The translations under genes and the position numbers were made by a program. From an uncultured Pseudomonadales bacterium (GTDB taxonomy: Bacteria; Pseudomonadota; Gammaproteobacteria; Pseudomonadales; Balneatricaceae), in the NCBI GenBank assembly GCA_938084925.1, contig CALKFY010000075.1, positions 1-49,799 of the forward strand: DNA of 49,799 nucleotides, in the 5' to 3' direction. Below are positions 18,123 to 25,902 of the stretch, piece after piece. The notes under the pieces were generated by a model, which worked only from the letters and a program-made list of their open reading frames with translations, was not told the DNA's origin and searched no databases. Numbering within the stretch: the stretch's first letter is position 1; each line of letters opens with the position of its first letter.

Positions 18123-19130
18123 ATGACTGTAAAAGTAGGTATCAATGGCATGGGCCGTATGGGGCGTTTGGTATTACGTGCCGCGTGGGGCTGGCCAGAA
18201 TTTGAATTTATCCAACTCAACGACCCAGCCGGTGACGCCACAGCCACTGCTCATCTAATGAAATTCGATTCCGTGCATGGTACCTGGGGCCCTGAATGCA
18301 GCGCCACAGATGACCAAGTCATCATTGATGGTCAAATGCTGGCCTACAGCCAAAATACGCGTATCGAAGATACTGACTGGTCAGCCTGCGATCTTGTCAT
18401 TGAAGCCTCTGGTAAGTTCAAGAAAAAAGAGCTGCTTGAAGAATACCTACAACAAGGCGTTAAGCGTGTGCTTGTAACGGCACCGGTTAAACAAGAAGGT
18501 GTGCTAGATTTAGTTATGGGCGTCAATCATGAATTATATGATGCTGATAAACACCAGCTTGTCACCGCGGCTTCTTGCACCACTAACTGTTTAGCACCTG
18601 TGGTCAAGGTTCTGCACGAGAAGCTTGGTATCAAGCATGGTTCCATGACGACTATTCATGATATCACCAACACCCAAACGATTCTGGATGCTCACCACAA
18701 GGACTTACGCCGGGCTCGTTCCTGCGGCCAAAACTTAATCCCTACCACCACCGGCTCTGCGACAGCCATCACACACATTTTCCCCGAACTAAAGGGCAAG
18801 CTAAATGGCCATGCGGTGCGTATTCCGCTAGCCAACGCATCCTTAACTGATTGTGTGTTTGAAATGCACAATCCCACCAGTGTGGAAGCAATCAATCAGT
18901 TACTATCGGAGGCGGCGGCTGGCGAATTAGCGGGGGTGCTTGGTTATGAAGAGCGTCCGCTAGTATCCAACGATTACCGTACCGACCCGCGTTCTTGTAT
19001 TGTCGATGCCTTATCGACCATGGTCATTAACGATACCCAAGTTAAGTTGTACTTGTGGTATGACAATGAGTGGGGCTATGTAAACCGTACGGCAGAGTTA
19101 GCACGCCTGATGATGGCAGGTGATCACTAA
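18123..19130 (+). CDS. ArsJ-associated glyceraldehyde-3-phosphate dehydrogenase
   Basis: A 335-residue GAPDH with NAD-binding [12 protein letters not shown] (residues 7-18), catalytic C152 ([11 protein letters not shown]) and H179 (TIHDITNTQ). The early segment [19 protein letters not shown] is the form seen in GAPDHs encoded beside arsJ rather than glycolytic Gap (which has VVAINDL). Known chemistry: arsenate replaces phosphate, giving 1-arseno-3-phosphoglycerate that ArsJ exports. The arsJ gene follows after 3 bp. A -10-like TACAAT lies at 18084-18089; no ArsR gene or ars cluster is adjacent. Confidence 0.9.
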
Positions 19131-19133
19131 TAC

Positions 19134-20351
19134 ATGTTTAGCCAGCTTTCTGCAGAAGTTCGCCAGTACCTTGTGGTGACGGGCAACTACTGGGCCTTTA
19201 CCCTCACTGACGGTGCCTTGCGCATGCTAGTCATCCTTCATTTCTATGGGCTTGGCTACAATACGCTACAGATTGCTTCGCTGTTTTTGCTGTACGAGTT
19301 CTTTGGTGTAGTCACCAATCTCGTGGGTGGTTATCTAGGTGCACGCCTAGGGCTAAATCGCACCATGAACCTCGGCTTGTTCTTACAACTACTGGCACTT
19401 GCCATGTTACTGGTTCCCGATGCCCAACTAACAATTGTGTGGGTAATGCTTGCCCAAGCTATGTCGGGCATTGCCAAGGACCTCAACAAGATGAGCGCCA
19501 AAAGTGCCATCAAATCTCTGGTCCCTGCCGATGCACAAGGTATGCTATTTCGCTGGGTGGCGATTCTAACTGGCTCCAAAAACACCTTGAAGGGCATAGG
19601 CTTTTTCCTTGGCGGCGCCATGCTCATGGTGACCGACTTACAAGGTGCAGCAGCAATCATGTTAATAGCTTTGGGACTGGTTTGGTTGCTCAGTTTATTG
19701 CTACTTAAACAAGACCTAGGCAAGAGTAAAAACAAACCTAAATTTCGTCAATTGCTGTCTAAGAATCGTGCTATTAACCAACTTAGCGCTGCCCGCATGA
19801 TGCTATTTGGTGCTCGCGATATTTGGTTTGTTATAGCCTTGCCGGTTTACCTGAGCCAACAGGCTAACTGGGATCATTGGCAGGTTGGCAGTGCCTTAGC
19901 CTTGTGGGTGATTGCTTATGGATTTATGCAATCTTTAACGCCATGGCTAACGGGCCGTCGTCAAGGCCGTGCGCCCCAAGGTAAAGATGCCCTATTCTGG
20001 GTGGTGGCCCTAACGGCAATTCCAGCCCTTATCGCCTTGGCAATGCAGGCAGCAAATGACCCGGTACTGCTTTTACTGGTAGGTTTAGGTGTATTTGGTT
20101 TGGTATTTGCTGTCAATTCTTCTATTCACAGCTATTTAATCGTCGACTACGCAGATGCGGATGGCACATCACTAGATGTAGGCTTCTATTACATGGCCAA
20201 TGCCGCAGGACGTTTATTAGGCACCGTGTTATCTGGCTGGGTATTCTTAGAAGGTGGTCTGCTTTGGTGTCTATACCTATCCACAGCCATGTTACTAATA
20301 GCCAGCTTGCTCTCAATCGGCTTGCCAGCAACTAAGCCTCAAGGGTCTTAA
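19134..20351 (+). CDS. arsJ: ArsJ organoarsenical efflux permease (MFS)
   Basis: A 405-residue major facilitator protein with about twelve hydrophobic segments. The N-terminus (NYWAFTLTDGALRMLVILHF) and the loop QAMSGIAKDLNKMSAKSAIK are characteristic of ArsJ. It starts 3 bp after the GAPDH stop, as in described gapdh-arsJ pairs, and would expel 1-arseno-3-phosphoglycerate, which then breaks down to arsenate outside. Its last 185 bases lie in a direct repeat whose second copy is at 20482-20715. Before that duplication arsJ would have overlapped the facing marR gene tail to tail by about 20 bp. Confidence 0.9.
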   Translation: MFSQLSAEVRQYLVVTGNYWAFTLTDGALRMLVILHFYGLGYNTLQIASLFLLYEFFGVVTNLVGGYLGARLGLNRTMNLGLFLQLLALAMLLVPDAQLTIVWVMLAQAMSGIAKDLNKMSAKSAIKSLVPADAQGMLFRWVAILTGSKNTLKGIGFFLGGAMLMVTDLQGAAAIMLIALGLVWLLSLLLLKQDLGKSKNKPKFRQLLSKNRAINQLSAARMMLFGARDIWFVIALPVYLSQQANWDHWQVGSALALWVIAYGFMQSLTPWLTGRRQGRAPQGKDALFWVVALTAIPALIALAMQAANDPVLLLLVGLGVFGLVFAVNSSIHSYLIVDYADADGTSLDVGFYYMANAAGRLLGTVLSGWVFLEGGLLWCLYLSTAMLLIASLLSIGLPATKPQGS

Positions 20352-20481: not shown

Positions 20482-20715
20482 CATCACTAGATGTAGGCTT
20501 CTATTACATGGCCAATGCCGCAGGACGTTTATTAGGCACCGTGTTATCTGGCTGGGTATTCTTAGAAGATGGTCTGCTTTGGTGTCTATACCTATCCACA
20601 GCCATGTTACTAATGGCCAGCTTGCTCTCAATCAGCTTGCCAGCAACTAAGCCTCAAGGGTCTTAACCAATTGGCGTAACATTTCTTTAAGCAACTCTTG
20701 CTGATCGCCACTGTA
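20482..20715 (+). repeat. 234 bp direct repeat, copy 2 (arsJ tail remnant plus true marR 3' end)
   Basis: Second copy of 20167-20400. Here the plus strand carries a headless arsJ tail of about 56 codons, while the minus strand carries the working end of marR (stop at 20647-20649). Differences from copy 1 include GGTGG to GATGG and CGCAGCATATC to CGTAACATTTC. Confidence 0.95.
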
Positions 20716-21096
20716 GCTAGCTAGCACCTGTTCTTCATGCCACTTGGCTTTATCCAATAATTCATCAACCAAGGTGCGGCCTTGGGGGGTAATAAATATT
20801 AAAATCGCCCGCTTATCCTTGGCACCTTTTTGTCGACTTAATAAACCCTCAGCTTCCATTCTAGATACCAGCTTGGACAAGGTTGGCTGATTAAAAAGCA
20901 CCCGTTGATTGAGCTGATTTAGCGTTAAGCCATCGCCATCGGACAAGCTTGCTAGGATACGCCAATAGTTCACATTGACCCCAGCCTCTTTTACCGTGGC
21001 ATGAAATTGTTCACTCACTAGCTTGCTAGAACGGGCTAGCAAGTAGGCTAGATAGTCATCAACAAAGGGCTTGGATGTTTGTTTAGCTGCAGGCAT
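20647..21096 (-). CDS. MarR-family regulator (NicR/PicR-like position)
   Basis: A 149-residue MarR protein: winged helix-turn-helix with LTLNQLNQRVLFNQPTLSKL as helices and recognition helix, SRMEAEGLLSR wing, and helical dimerisation ends. I chose the methionine of MPAAKQTSKPF; the longer reading upstream runs through AT-rich promoter sequence. It is divergent from the NicX-like operon with a 99 bp intergenic region containing a strong inverted repeat. MarR repressors (NicR, PicR) control the known nicotinate and picolinate clusters, so local control of the operon is likely. Its 3' end lies in the 234 bp repeat. Confidence 0.87.
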   Translation of the reverse strand: MPAAKQTSKPFVDDYLAYLLARSSKLVSEQFHATVKEAGVNVNYWRILASLSDGDGLTLNQLNQRVLFNQPTLSKLVSRMEAEGLLSRQKGAKDKRAILIFITPQGRTLVDELLDKAKWHEEQVLASYSGDQQELLKEMLRQLVKTLEA

Positions 21097-21120
21097 CGAA
21101 ATCAATTTTTCTCTAATTAT

Positions 21121-21165
21121 TTGACAACTAGGGTAACATAAATATATATTCCATTTCATATATTT
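21121..21165 (+). promoter_or_regulatory. Promoter of the nicX-like operon with overlapping MarR-type operator
   Basis: A -35 TTGACA (21121-21126) is followed, 18 bp on, by a -10-like TATATT (21145-21150). An inverted repeat AAATATAT (21140-21147) and ATATATTT (21158-21165) with a 10 bp centre covers the -10 and start region. Binding there by the divergent MarR protein would block the polymerase; ligand release would induce the pathway. Confidence 0.6.
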
Positions 21166-21195: not shown

Positions 21196-22242
21196 ATGCT
21201 CAACGACCGCATTGAGAAACCTTGGCTGGACGCCTTCCAATACACCTTTAGCCTGTGTGGTCTGGAACCTGGTGATACGGTTGCCATCCTATCGGAAAGC
21301 CAATCCCGCGAGATCAATTTACAACTAGCCGAACTAGCCTTATTAAACCTTGGCACACGGCCATTTCATGTGCGCATTCCCACACCAGCTGAAACAGCGC
21401 CAGTACCCGTGCGTTCTACTGGCGCTAGCAAGGTATTAACTGGCATGCAACCAGCGATTAATGCCCTCGGTAGCGCCACCATGGTTATCGACTGCACCGT
21501 GGAAGGTTTGTTGCATGCACCTGAACTACCTGAGCTGCTTAAGGCTGGCACACGCATTTTAATGATCAGCAACGAGCATCCTGAGGCTCTTGCCCGCTTG
21601 CAGCCTAGTCTAGAACTAACACCTAAGGTGAAAGCCGCTGCCAAGATGTGTAAGCAAGCCAGTCAAATGCGAGTTACCTCTGCCGCTGGAACAGACTTAA
21701 CCATCGATATGACCGATGCACCAACTGCCGGGGTTTGGGGTTATACGGACCGTCCGGGCACCCTCGCTCACTGGCCTGCAGGTGTTGTGGTTAGCTTCCC
21801 TAAGCAAGGTTCTACCAACGGTACTCTAGTTTTAGCACCGGGTGATGTGAACTTAACCTTTAAGCGCTACCTACAAGATACTGTAACCCTCACCATAGAA
21901 GATGACTATGTTACCCATATTGACGGCACCGGCACCGATGCCGAATTGATGCGCCGCTACTGGGCAGCGTGGGGCGACAAGGAAGCTTACGCGGTATCCC
22001 ATGTGGGTTTCGGCATGAATCCCAACGCGCGCTACGAAGCCCTCACCATGTACGACCAGCGTGACACAAATGGCACTGAATTACGTGCCTTTGCCGGTAA
22101 TTTCTTGTTCTCTACGGGCGCCAACGAATTTGCCGGCCGTTATACCGAAGGACACTTTGATATTCCTGTGTGCAACTGTGACATCTGGTTGGACGACCAA
22201 CTGGTGGTGAAAGCTGGCCAGCTACAGGGCGACCTTGCCTAA
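21196..22242 (+). CDS. nicX: NicX-like 2,5-dihydroxypyridine 5,6-dioxygenase family protein
   Basis: A 348-residue member of the M29 aminopeptidase-derived dioxygenase family. It is similar over its whole length to what I recall of Pseudomonas putida NicX, including YTDRPGTLAHWPAG (about 183-196), LRAFAGNFLFSTGAN and CDIWLDDQ. The iron ligands proposed for NicX map to H269 (AVSHVGFGMNP), H320 and D322 (EGHFDIP). Known role: ring opening of 2,5-dihydroxypyridine to N-formylmaleamate. It opens an operon with a NicD-like hydrolase (1-base overlap). Because the rest of the operon differs from known nic clusters, its true substrate may be a related hydroxypyridine. An M29 peptidase function is less likely. 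Confidence 0.8.
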   Translation: MLNDRIEKPWLDAFQYTFSLCGLEPGDTVAILSESQSREINLQLAELALLNLGTRPFHVRIPTPAETAPVPVRSTGASKVLTGMQPAINALGSATMVIDCTVEGLLHAPELPELLKAGTRILMISNEHPEALARLQPSLELTPKVKAAAKMCKQASQMRVTSAAGTDLTIDMTDAPTAGVWGYTDRPGTLAHWPAGVVVSFPKQGSTNGTLVLAPGDVNLTFKRYLQDTVTLTIEDDYVTHIDGTGTDAELMRRYWAAWGDKEAYAVSHVGFGMNPNARYEALTMYDQRDTNGTELRAFAGNFLFSTGANEFAGRYTEGHFDIPVCNCDIWLDDQLVVKAGQLQGDLA

Positions 22243-23009
22243 TGCTATTTATTGCTGAAACAGGTAGCCGTGAGCAACCGCCTTTGCTTATGCTGCACGG
22301 TGTGGGTGGAAACCATCAAGCCTTTGCACCACAGCTAAGCGCCTTAGCCGACAATGCTTGGTGCCTGGCTTGGGATATGCCGGGCTACGGACAATCCACC
22401 GCTCACCACGACATGACATGGGACAGCCTATGCGAGTCGATTGTGCAGTTATTGGACGAACGCGATATTCAGCAGGTAAACCTACTCGGCCATTCACTAG
22501 GCGGCATGCTGGCGCTGGAATTCGCACAGCGCTACCCTCAGCGTTTACAGAGTCTAATCCTGTATGCCACAAGCCCTGCTTTTGGCAGCCAGGATGGTGC
22601 TTTCCAGGAAAAGTTTTTGCGTGCACGCCTAGCGCCTTTAGAGCAAGGCGCGACCATGACGGACATTGCCAATAACATAGTGCCTGGCATGCTGCACCCA
22701 GAGCAGCAACATCTTGCACCCCAGTTGGTAGCCATGATGGGACAGGTGACAGCACCGGCTTACGCCCAAGCACTGGCATGTATTACGCAGTTTGACCAGC
22801 GCGGCAACCTAGCCAATCTAAACCTGCCTTGTACCCTAATTGCTGGTGACCAGGACCCTAACGCTCCTGCCGCCATGATGGCCAAAATGGCCAGCAAAAT
22901 CCCCCAAGCAGACTATATCAAGATCGCCACCAGTGGCCATTTTGCCAATCTAGAGCAGGCTGCTGCCTTTAATCAAACAATCAAACAACACTTGAGCCAG
23001 CTGATCTAG
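22242..23009 (+). CDS. nicD: Alpha/beta hydrolase (NicD-like N-formylmaleamate deformylase)
   Basis: A 255-residue alpha/beta hydrolase: oxyanion segment LHGVGGNH, nucleophile elbow GHSLGG (about residues 87-92), acid in AGDQDPNAP and histidine in TSGHFANLEQ. NicD, the enzyme that acts right after NicX in nicotinate breakdown, is the same fold and size, and the start codon overlaps the nicX-like stop (TAATG). The pairing supports a deformylase acting on the ring-opened product. Alone, the sequence would also fit an ester or C-C hydrolase. Confidence 0.75.
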   Translation: MLFIAETGSREQPPLLMLHGVGGNHQAFAPQLSALADNAWCLAWDMPGYGQSTAHHDMTWDSLCESIVQLLDERDIQQVNLLGHSLGGMLALEFAQRYPQRLQSLILYATSPAFGSQDGAFQEKFLRARLAPLEQGATMTDIANNIVPGMLHPEQQHLAPQLVAMMGQVTAPAYAQALACITQFDQRGNLANLNLPCTLIAGDQDPNAPAAMMAKMASKIPQADYIKIATSGHFANLEQAAAFNQTIKQHLSQLI

Positions 23010-23031: not shown

Positions 23032-24285
23032 ATGAGCAATCTTGACTCCCCCATGTTCGAAACCAAAGCTTGGAGACTTACCGAGCAGCAAGAAGAACTA
23101 ACTACGCGCGCCCGCACCTTAGGCCAGGCCAAGTTTGCTGATCGTGCCGAAAAATGGGATACACAAGCGACTTTCCCAACAGACAACTACAAGGACATGT
23201 ACGACGCTGGCTTAATGGGAATTTGTATTCCTAAACAGCATGGTGGCGAAGGTGCCGACCTATTAACCTACGCCCTTACATCGGCGGAAATTGGCCGTTA
23301 TTGTGGTGCTACAGCCTTGACGTTTAACATGCATGTATCTTCTTGTGCATGGAGTGGCCGCCTAGCTGACGACCTAGATATGGATGAAGCAACCCGTGCC
23401 CTACATGATGCTCGTCGCGGCGTACACTACAAGCGTATTCTTGAAACGGGTGCTATCTACGCACAACCTTTCTCTGAGGGCGGTGCTGCAGCTGCAGGTA
23501 AACAAGCTTTTGAAACCATCGCTAAACGGGTTGAAGGCGGTTGGATTATCAATGGTAAAAAAATCTTTGCCTCGCTAGCGGGTCATGCCAACTACTATGG
23601 CGCGCTGTGTACCGAAATCACCGATGAAAACCAAACGCCAAGTAGAGCCAACACCATGTATTTGGCAGTGCCTGCCGCTGCCGAGGGCGTTAGTGTAGAA
23701 GGTCCTTGGGACCCTGTAGGTATGCGAGGCACGGTATCTCGTACACTTATTTTCAAGGACGTATTTGTCGATGACAATGCGCCTCTAATGCCATCCGGCG
23801 TCTATTTTCAAGCGGCTAAACGCTGGCCTCATATGTTTATGACCCTAACGCCAACCTATATGGGCCTAGCCCAAGCGGCTTATGACTTTACCGTAAAATA
23901 CTTGCGCGGAGAAATTGAAGGTACAGGTCCGGTGAAGCGCCGCCAGTTTGCCACCAAGCAGTTGGCTGTAGCACAAATGCGCATCATGCTAGATCAAACC
24001 AAGGCTATCTGGTTCCAAGCCATGAGCGAAGCCTGTGCCAACCCCAGCAAAGACCAGCTACTACGTGCCTGGTCTGCCCAATACACCACCATGGAAAACG
24101 CCAACGAGATTGCGCAATTGGCGATACGTACCTGTGGCGGCCAATCCATGCTCAAAACCTTCCCCCTAGAGCGCATGTATCGAGACACCCGCTGCGGCTC
24201 TTTGATGCTGCCGTGGACAGCGGAACTATGCCAAAATATGTTGGGCAAGGGCGCCCTATATGAGCGCGGTGAAAGCGACGAATAG
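23032..24285 (+). CDS. Acyl-CoA dehydrogenase-family flavoprotein lacking the usual catalytic glutamate
   Basis: A 417-residue protein with the full acyl-CoA dehydrogenase fold (helical N-terminal domain, FAD-binding middle with GGWIINGKKIFASLAGHANY, C-terminal helical bundle). In ordinary members the catalytic base lies in a YEGTxE motif near the C-terminus. Here the equivalent is LPWTAE (393-398), so the glutamate is replaced by proline; the alternative isovaleryl-CoA-type position also has no glutamate by eye. It may be a flavin monooxygenase of the DszC/HpaB-like type or a dehydrogenase with a different base. Being the third gene of the NicX-like operon, it would act on the same pathway. 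Confidence 0.8.
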   Translation: MSNLDSPMFETKAWRLTEQQEELTTRARTLGQAKFADRAEKWDTQATFPTDNYKDMYDAGLMGICIPKQHGGEGADLLTYALTSAEIGRYCGATALTFNMHVSSCAWSGRLADDLDMDEATRALHDARRGVHYKRILETGAIYAQPFSEGGAAAAGKQAFETIAKRVEGGWIINGKKIFASLAGHANYYGALCTEITDENQTPSRANTMYLAVPAAAEGVSVEGPWDPVGMRGTVSRTLIFKDVFVDDNAPLMPSGVYFQAAKRWPHMFMTLTPTYMGLAQAAYDFTVKYLRGEIEGTGPVKRRQFATKQLAVAQMRIMLDQTKAIWFQAMSEACANPSKDQLLRAWSAQYTTMENANEIAQLAIRTCGGQSMLKTFPLERMYRDTRCGSLMLPWTAELCQNMLGKGALYERGESDE

Positions 24286-24295
24286 GCTACAGATT

Positions 24296-24338
24296 GGACT
24301 GTAGATTTTATCCCGGACTGAAGTCCGACCTACAGTCC
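24296..24338. repeat. REP-like palindrome between the flavoprotein and ligase genes
   Basis: GGACTGTAG (24296-24304) is inverted as CTACAGTCC (24330-24338), and inside it CGGACT-GA-AGTCCG (24314-24327) forms a second stem. The GTCGGACTTCAGTCCGAC-type sequence is a common intergenic palindrome in gammaproteobacteria. It could attenuate transcription or stabilise the upstream mRNA. Confidence 0.7.
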
Positions 24339-24375
24339 GACATAAAACCTCTTGTCAGGCTAATACCCGACCTTT

Positions 24376-25902
24376 ATGGAACCTAGCATGCACAATATTT
24401 CTCAGTGGATTCAAACCCACGCTAGCTTTACTCCAGATAAGCTGGCCATCATCGATGAACACCACAGCTACACCTATGGCGAACTAGAACAGCTAGTCAG
24501 CCAGCATGCGCGTTTGCTGAAACACCAGATGCGTATAGGCCGTGGAGACCGCGTAGCGTATCTGGGTTTTAATAGCATTGAGTTTTTGTGTTTGGTATTT
24601 GCCTGCGCCCGCTTAGGAGCCTTGTTCATTCCCATGAACTGGCGCTTAACCACGCCCGAATTTGATCATATTTTAGAGGACGCCAGTCCTTCTTTGGTTG
24701 TTTGTAGCAGTCGTTTCTCACAGCAGTTAGAACCCCTGCGTGAACAGCACCCTGACTGCCGCTTTGTAGCGCAAAACTTTAGCCACCCTGGCTGGCTCAG
24801 TCTACCCAGTATGCTACACCTAGCGAAAGACGAGCAGCGTGATGACGAAAACCCGCATGTTGACCTCAACAGCCCCTTGTTGATTGTTTATACGTCGGGT
24901 ACGACTGGTTTGCCCAAGGGCGCTGTACTGACCCAAAACGCACTCTTTCATAACGCCTTAAACAGTGCCCACATGCATGACATGTGCAGTCAGGACCGTA
25001 TATTAACGGTACTGCCTATGTTTCATGTGGGCGGCTTAAACATTCAAACATTACCGGCCCTCTATAAGGGTGCCACGGTAATTTTGCATGACCGCTTTGA
25101 GCCCCTACGCACCTTGGAATCCATTCGTGATGATAAACCCAGTTTGGTAGTATTGGTGCCGGCAACCTTGCAGGCCGTATTGGATCAGCCTAACTGGCAG
25201 ACTTACTTATCTAGCTTGCGCAGTATTTCCACGGGCTCCTCGGTGGTGCCCGAAACACTCATTGCGCCGTTTCATGCTATTGGCCTACCAGTACAACAAG
25301 TATATGGACTCACAGAAACCGCACCCATTGCCGTTTATCAAACCGCTGCACAAGCCTTACTCAAGTCCGGTAGTACCGGCTTACCTGGCCTGCATTGCGA
25401 TATGCAACTAGTGGATAACCAAGGGGACGCAGTGGTAGACGGCGACATAGGCCATATCCGCATCAAAGGCCCTAATGTCATGTTTGAATATTGGGGCAAT
25501 CCACAAGCCACTGCGAAAGCCTTACACAACGGCTGGTTTGATACAGGTGACATGGGTTACAAGGATACAGATGGTCATCTGGTGGTTGCTGACCGCGCCA
25601 AAGACATGATCATTTCTGGTGGTGAGAACATCTACCCAGCCGAGTTAGAAAACGTGCTGCACTCTATGCCCGGTGTACGCGATGCTGCGGTGATAGGTCG
25701 TCACCATGAAAAGTGGGGGGAAACTCCTGTTGCCGTGGTTATAGTGCAAGCAGGCCATGAGCTTACCAGCGCAGAAATTTTGGCCTATTTTGACGGACGC
25801 TTAGCGCGCTTTAAGCACCCTCGTGAAGTCATCTTTATGGATGAATTGCCACGCAATGTGATGGGAAAAGTACAGAAATTCCGTTTACGCTCTATGATCT
25901 AG
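24376..25902 (+). CDS. AMP-dependent acyl-CoA synthetase/ligase
   Basis: A 508-residue adenylate-forming ligase. The P-loop is IVYTSGTTGLPKGAVLTQ, followed by YGLTETAP, the hinge region GDMGYKDTDGHLVVADRAKD, MIISGGENIYPAELE and the C-terminal catalytic lysine in RNVMGKVQKFRLR. It activates a carboxylic acid to its CoA thioester. It is the last gene of the NicX-like operon, beyond a 90 bp gap with a palindrome. A CoA ligase is not part of known nic or pic pathways. Start may be the second ATG (24388). Its stop overlaps the oxyR stop by 4 bp tail to tail. Confidence 0.88.
   Translation: MEPSMHNISQWIQTHASFTPDKLAIIDEHHSYTYGELEQLVSQHARLLKHQMRIGRGDRVAYLGFNSIEFLCLVFACARLGALFIPMNWRLTTPEFDHILEDASPSLVVCSSRFSQQLEPLREQHPDCRFVAQNFSHPGWLSLPSMLHLAKDEQRDDENPHVDLNSPLLIVYTSGTTGLPKGAVLTQNALFHNALNSAHMHDMCSQDRILTVLPMFHVGGLNIQTLPALYKGATVILHDRFEPLRTLESIRDDKPSLVVLVPATLQAVLDQPNWQTYLSSLRSISTGSSVVPETLIAPFHAIGLPVQQVYGLTETAPIAVYQTAAQALLKSGSTGLPGLHCDMQLVDNQGDAVVDGDIGHIRIKGPNVMFEYWGNPQATAKALHNGWFDTGDMGYKDTDGHLVVADRAKDMIISGGENIYPAELENVLHSMPGVRDAAVIGRHHEKWGETPVAVVIVQAGHELTSAEILAYFDGRLARFKHPREVIFMDELPRNVMGKVQKFRLRSMI

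Follow-up and report, generated by a model that had tools for sequence, protein, structure and literature searches.

A glutamate-less acyl-CoA dehydrogenase-fold protein in a ring-cleavage operon as probable oxygenase of a two-component flavin monooxygenase

Which reaction might be catalyzed by a protein that has the full-length acyl-CoA dehydrogenase (ACAD) fold and lacks the catalytic glutamate? This question is raised by a gene (ATG start, 417 aa plus stop) on contig C75 of a gammaproteobacterial MAG, within the 49,799-nucleotide stretch of DNA analysed here (the window). The host genome comprises 2.38 Mb and is 87% complete; its closest named relatives are Oceanospirillaceae MAGs, one of them labelled ASP10-02a. 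The gene is the third in a tight same-strand row, which lies divergently to a MarR-family gene and encodes a NicX-like dioxygenase, an alpha/beta hydrolase, the ACAD-fold protein and a CoA ligase. The features are as follows:

20647..21159, minus strand: MarR-family protein (PF12802/PF01047)
21196..22242, plus strand: NicX-like Fe(II) ring-cleavage dioxygenase (phmmer to 7cn3, E 1.1e-64)
22242..23009, plus strand: alpha/beta hydrolase, in the PcaD/NicD position of the operon (PF00561, E 9.4e-33)
23032..24285, plus strand: ACAD-fold protein lacking the catalytic glutamate, candidate oxygenase of a two-component flavin monooxygenase (Pfam, alignment, tree, context)
23572..23574, plus strand: Ser181 codon, aligned with MCAD Thr168 and HPAH C2 Ser171; invariant in 92/92 family members
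23824..23838, plus strand: W265-P266-H267-M268-F269 codons, aligned with HPAH C2 R263-P264-Y265-F266
24205..24225, plus strand: M392-L393-P394-W395-T396-A397-E398 codons, in place of the YEGTxE motif
24286..24345, no strand: REP-like palindromic repeat in the gap that separates the genes for ACAD-fold protein and ligase (core 24314-24335)
24376..25902, plus strand: AMP-forming acyl/aryl-CoA ligase, fourth gene of the operon (PF00501, E 4.3e-79)

The four-gene row is kept within the genus of the window, where the ACAD-fold proteins are 78-79% identical. Top NCBIfam matches of the hydrolase were of the PcaD type, under the cut-off, and this enzyme likely acts on the ring-fission product. The core of the REP-like repeat occurs in 27 genome copies with two or fewer mismatches, and the reversed control gave none. 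A strong sigma-70-like promoter match (TTGACA-18-TATATT, 11/12; 21121-21150, plus strand) lies just upstream of the NicX-like gene; translation of the MarR gene may therefore begin at a Met inside the ORF rather than at its start at 21159. Elsewhere in the window (18123-20351, plus strand) a GAPDH-like gene followed by a gene for an ArsJ organoarsenical efflux MFS protein (NF033734, 581.8 bits, cut-off 400) forms an arsenate-detoxification pair.

The missing base and the position of the family

The protein exceeded the Pfam cut-offs for the ACAD N-terminal, middle and C-terminal models and thus carries all three domains of the superfamily. We aligned it with MAFFT to butyryl-CoA dehydrogenases (9w60, 5ol2) and to an isovaleryl-CoA dehydrogenase (IVD)-type paralogue from its own genome (locus L004). 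It has RD-TRCGSLMLPWTAEL opposite the dehydrogenase RD-AKITEI-YEGTSEV, that is, the dehydrogenase stretch RDAKITEI-YEGTSEV is replaced by RDTRCGSLMLPWTAEL. The column of the catalytic glutamate (MCAD E376, D+8) is occupied by L393, or by P394 if one inserted residue is allowed, both of them non-acidic. At the alternative IVD-type position (IVD E254; LDYER in the paralogue) stands M268, and the adjacent helix-G arginine of ACADs (MCAD R256 column) is F269. A preliminary description of this DNA had claimed that the YEGTxE motif is replaced and that the isovaleryl-type glutamate looks absent as well, and the alignment confirmed both statements.

Among 92 family members neither the E376 nor the E254 column was acidic in a single case. 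Column 392 is always Met and column 394 always Pro, giving an invariant M-x-P, while column 393 is Leu in 91 members and Arg in one, and column 268 is Met or Leu throughout. The glutamate that a functional acyl-CoA dehydrogenase carries at one of these two positions is thus lacking from the whole family. Because the loss is shared by 92 members we regard it as a fixed family trait, and reject chance, a sequencing error or a lineage accident as its cause. The conserved acids left in the family are E149, E380, D385 and E398, of which E149 and E398 align with acids also present in ordinary dehydrogenases. E398, the last residue of LPWTAE, corresponds to the acid of the dehydrogenase GTSE; judged from the alignment it is unlikely to serve as substitute base, since ordinary dehydrogenases have this acid in addition to E376. 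Ser181 aligns with the serine that contacts flavin N5 in C2 (Ser171), the oxygenase of p-hydroxyphenylacetate 3-hydroxylase (HPAH; PMC10816480). A lone gene copy (57% identity, locus L014, 8989-10236) without operon partners, on the conjugative cyanobacterial plasmid pDol_DET69_01 of Dolichospermum, has Arg at column 393.

Structural comparison and tree placement had been proposed as checks on the preliminary description. An AF2 model of the protein (pLDDT 87.1, pTM 0.89) matched ACADs over its whole length, with Z 36-39 over approximately 370 residues. The match to 5z8t was equally good (Z 36.8), and KijD3 (35.0), DnmZ (35) and TdsC (34.8) followed at a short distance, so that the fold of this predicted model (VIA-align; Z 36-39 for both groups) does not by itself separate an oxygenase from a dehydrogenase. 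The top profile matches among solved structures were 5gj7/5z8t (E 2e-37), the structure title of 5z8t being 'Flavin-containing monooxygenase', and there were further matches to KijD3 (E 4e-24) and DnmZ (E 2e-19). None of the curated NCBIfam models came near its own cut-off (HPAH C2 model NF045920, 34.7 bits against 650; HsaA model NF045629, 71 against 450).

In a maximum likelihood tree of 45 rows the family formed one clade (100/100) on a stem of 1.6 changes per column, apart from the dehydrogenases and also from HPAH/HsaA/XiaF. 5z8t appeared as a long single branch, which shares its side of the root with the family and the dehydrogenases; the tree was flagged for long branches meeting and its deep order is not relied on here. 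That the family belongs to neither reference group, dehydrogenases or HPAH/HsaA, is secure.

Flavin reductases and sensors among the relatives

A scan of bacterial genomes returned at least 582 related stretches, of which the best 80 were kept; viral contigs encoded no relative of the ACAD-fold protein. Nearly all of these 80 with enough flanking sequence encoded the NicX-like dioxygenase, the hydrolase, the ACAD-fold protein and the ligase together, and the operon is strictly conserved across many families. The ligase gene follows 3' of the ACAD-fold gene in most relatives and is absent beside it in two operons (G472 and G500). The gene and its NicX-like partner are found almost throughout Bradyrhizobium and occur widely among marine Alpha- and Gammaproteobacteria. 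To a second clade (45-49% identical) belong a paralogue on contig C32 of the window's own genome and copies on plasmids or chromosomes of Ensifer, Sinorhizobium, Shinella and Aminobacter. Its operons encode the NicX-like and ACAD-fold proteins, an N-terminally extended hydrolase (sometimes a TetR fusion), a glutamine-synthetase-like protein in place of the ligase, and a flavin reductase; as a rule an APC permease is encoded as well. The C32 operon has the order NicX, ACAD, hydrolase/TetR, glutamine-synthetase-like, flavin reductase. ORFs of about 670 aa that combine the hydrolase with the TetR regulator were observed at L101:3054-5063 (on C32), L137:6746-8749 and L138:10804-12807.

The preliminary description had further considered a monooxygenase role attractive, and the genomic context of the relatives, the decisive evidence here, supports this prediction of activity. 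In eight of ten complete genomes a flavin reductase (PF01613) was encoded within 5 kb of the ACAD-fold gene. The corresponding frequency for other ACAD-domain genes, among the matches listed in the same ten genomes (a list truncated at its weakest entries), was one in 150 (Fisher p 4e-11, for related genomes that are not independent of each other). A PF01613 reductase is encoded near the ACAD-fold gene in Stappia, Tardiphaga and Rhizobiales YIM 77505 and in four genomes of the window's class, and in these it adjoins a MarR gene or is fused to it. A Hyphomicrobiales MAG, a Rhodospirillales MAG and the whole second clade have the reductase too. In Stappia sediminis the linked genes lie at L037:9968-11236 (ACAD-fold protein) and L037:7477-7977 (reductase). 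HPAH C1 consists of a flavin reductase and a MarR domain, and the MarR domain binds substrate and lifts inhibition (PMC10816480). The same layout, N-terminal reductase and C-terminal MarR, was found in the partner proteins of two relatives (L036, 330 aa; L044, 319 aa), both of which align with the entire HPAH reductase model NF045919 (184 and 179 bits, below the cut-off of 340). The ligase-free operons and the retained Ser181 point in the same direction.

A flavin reductase thus is encoded together with the oxygenase candidate in relatives and beside the C32 paralogue; the operon of the window and its genus relatives encodes none, and has the MarR protein only. With the MarR parts of L036, L044, L130 and L132 this MarR protein shares 40-47% identity, and the window therefore appears to have kept the sensor while the reductase is gone from the operon. 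It also matched residues 176-308 of NF045919 (E 2.8e-9), with a better match to the HpaR model (1.1e-17; NCBIfam). Two PF01613 matches exist in the window's genome: the first belongs to the paralogous operon (C32:6737-7162; L101:6695-7177), the second, a weaker match, is on C50. The reductase for the window's oxygenase would most likely come from the locus on C32. Reductase-MarR fusions elsewhere in the genus (e.g. G010:C49) are no clear partners because they are also found in genomes without the operon. In one Bradyrhizobium genome (G175) the nearest reductase lies 12 kb away, beside a different, HsaA/C2-like oxygenase.

In another relative (L043, 8005-9192) Pfam places a LysR-type substrate-binding domain, and not MarR, on the reductase. 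Such a fusion is possibly a ligand-gated counterpart of the MarR fusion of HPAH C1 with a different sensor. A second candidate fusion of this kind was seen at L016:16608-17783.

The NicX-like partner and possible substrates

No Pfam or NCBIfam model matched the NicX homologue. Its iron ligands H265, S302, H318 and D320, together with H105 and H189, are kept in all 75 NicX homologues compared. Glu177 of NicX contacts N1 and O1 of the pyridine, and its alanine mutant has 2.7% activity (PMC7910607). This residue is Val180 in the window protein (bases 21733-21735), and the column holds V in 60, T in 11, I in two and N in two of the 75 homologues. With the iron ligands kept, the replacement probably reflects a substrate switch within the NicX family of dioxygenases. 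Since none of the 75 has retained Glu177, 2,5-dihydroxypyridine is probably not the ring being opened. No maleate isomerase over the cut-off was found in the 87%-complete genome, and on both grounds we doubt that this is a nicotinate/2,5-dihydroxypyridine pathway. The substrate would rather be a carbocyclic para-diol or a different heterocycle.

Genes for TRAP transporters adjoin several copies of the operon, which suggests an organic acid as substrate. At distances of up to 10 kb, genes of the salicylyl-CoA 5-hydroxylase/2-aminobenzoyl-CoA monooxygenase type occur in the genus Bradyrhizobium, in a related Bradyrhizobiaceae MAG and in Tardiphaga, as well as in a marine MAG (L049) and G522/G524; in Leucothrix and on C32 the operon borders on homoprotocatechuate (hpa) genes. 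These neighbours fit several aromatic substrates, including ones that give anthranilate, and are hints rather than proof. L093, L049 and L137 are loci at which salicylyl-CoA 5-hydroxylase/2-aminobenzoyl-CoA monooxygenase type genes were noted near the operon, in several lineages. The hpa genes on C32 (L101, 10109-14783) are meta-cleavage genes encoding an isomerase, HpaE, a FAH-type protein, a hydratase and HpaI and lie, with an M81 metallopeptidase gene, beside the paralogous operon; the only LigB-type dioxygenase of this genome is encoded on another contig, C95. The genome also encodes a closer HPAH C2-like oxygenase at the end of contig C103 (L167:9246-9710); the contig breaks off after its N-terminal part, which scores 219 bits over 148 positions.

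Proposed reaction, alternatives and comparison with known systems

The loss of both bases, the reductase linkage and MarR fusion in relatives, the C32 operon, Ser181 and the match to 5z8t lead us to read the ACAD-fold protein as the oxygenase of a two-component (group D type) flavin monooxygenase, with a probability of roughly 0.8. We infer the oxygen chemistry, the substrate class and the order of steps as follows. A separate NAD(P)H:flavin reductase would deliver reduced flavin to the oxygenase, which would bind it with Ser181 at N5. O2 would react with the bound reduced flavin to a C4a-(hydro)peroxyflavin, and by this route an aromatic compound would be hydroxylated. The hydroxylated ring could then be opened by the NicX-like dioxygenase and the fission product cleaved by the alpha/beta hydrolase, and the CoA ligase might activate either the substrate or a product acid.

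Some observations stand against an oxygenase. The operon of the window and of its genus relatives is without a reductase, His396 of HPAH C2 is not conserved (M392), the fold is as close to dehydrogenases as to monooxygenases, and the CoA ligase as neighbour would fit an enzyme acting on a CoA thioester. An ACAD enzyme of the latter kind without glutamate base, resembling acryloyl-CoA reductase or 3-sulfinopropionyl-CoA (3SP-CoA) desulfinase, could use the product of the ligase, which is the next gene in most relatives. 3SP-CoA desulfinase is itself an ACAD homologue without the glutamate, and the models for acryloyl-CoA reductase and 3SP-CoA desulfinase gave 120 and 107 bits, both far under their NCBIfam cut-offs. 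We consider this unlikely, since G472 and G500 lack the ligase beside the gene and the second clade has a glutamine-synthetase-like gene in its stead, the arginine of the MCAD R256 column is lost too, and the reductase linkage would be left unexplained.

Chemistry at nitrogen instead of ring hydroxylation, by a nitrososynthase/N-hydroxylase-like or oxidase-type homologue (KijD3, DnmZ, nitroalkane oxidase type), is suggested by KijD3 and DnmZ among the structural and profile matches, and the glutamine-synthetase-like gene and APC permease of the second clade would suggest an amine. Such an activity seems very improbable, as the most constant neighbour is a ring-cleavage dioxygenase, which needs a hydroxylated ring, and nitroalkane oxidase keeps an acidic base that is absent here. 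Of the parallels drawn in the preliminary description, the one to flavin monooxygenases is supported; the nearest characterised enzymes are two-component hydroxylases of the HPAH/HsaA type, and less so nitroalkane oxidase or DszC in particular. A catalytically dead or structural relative, as the lost catalytic residue might imply, is hardly credible given more than 100 invariant columns among 45 members and the strict conservation of the operon.

On the preferred reading as an oxygenase, a wider proposal can be made, to which we give slightly less than even odds. The gene and its NicX-like partner may represent an as yet undescribed pathway that opens the ring of a carbocyclic aromatic acid or of the corresponding CoA thioester. 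The oxygenase would be a new two-component ACAD-fold hydroxylase lineage that arose from the dehydrogenase side independently of HPAH/HsaA. Its control would lie with a flavin reductase coupled to a sensor (MarR or LysR), and it would feed a NicX-family dioxygenase that no longer has pyridine specificity. Literature searches on the operon, homarine catabolism, 5GJ7, and NicX with acyl-CoA dehydrogenase and flavin reductase returned no description of the cluster. Pipelines annotate the family as 'acyl-CoA dehydrogenase' and its partner as 'peptidase M29'; if the proposal is true, an aromatic ring-opening pathway is thereby hidden in hundreds of genomes as fatty-acid and peptide metabolism. It would also offer a four-protein pathway that can be tested, widespread among bacteria of sea and soil, and a third lineage of hydroxylases on the ACAD fold, here paired with a natural reductase; the NicX relative within it probably acts on something other than a pyridine.

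Among known systems, short-chain, butyryl- and isovaleryl-CoA dehydrogenases share with the window protein the full-length fold, the domain order and the GTSE-type acid, and differ at the E376, E254 and helix-G arginine positions, which are not conserved in it. NicX/NicD of nicotinate catabolism share with this operon the iron ligands (His, Ser, His, Asp), the residues H105 and H189 and an adjoining hydrolase, whereas Glu177 and a maleate isomerase over the cut-off are missing here. The ACAD type 2 domain protein 5gj7/5z8t, the best profile match, likewise has no glutamate, with H-N-P-P in that stretch; it is about 23% identical to the window protein, and no paper on its function was found in the literature searched. 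HsaA/HsaB (3-HSA hydroxylase) and other PF08028 oxygenases have the same fold and two components but form a separate clade, and HsaA also has a His in the region of C2 H396, where the window protein has M392. HPAH of the Acinetobacter type (C2 + C1) differs in its separate, deeply branching clade, in H396, in the substrate-binding R263, which is Trp here (W-P-H-M aligned with R263-P-Y-F266), and in the lack of a reductase from the window operon. With this system the family shares an ACAD-fold oxygenase without the dehydrogenase base, the serine at the N5-contact position (Ser171/Ser181) and, in its relatives, a flavin reductase adjoining or fused to a MarR domain.
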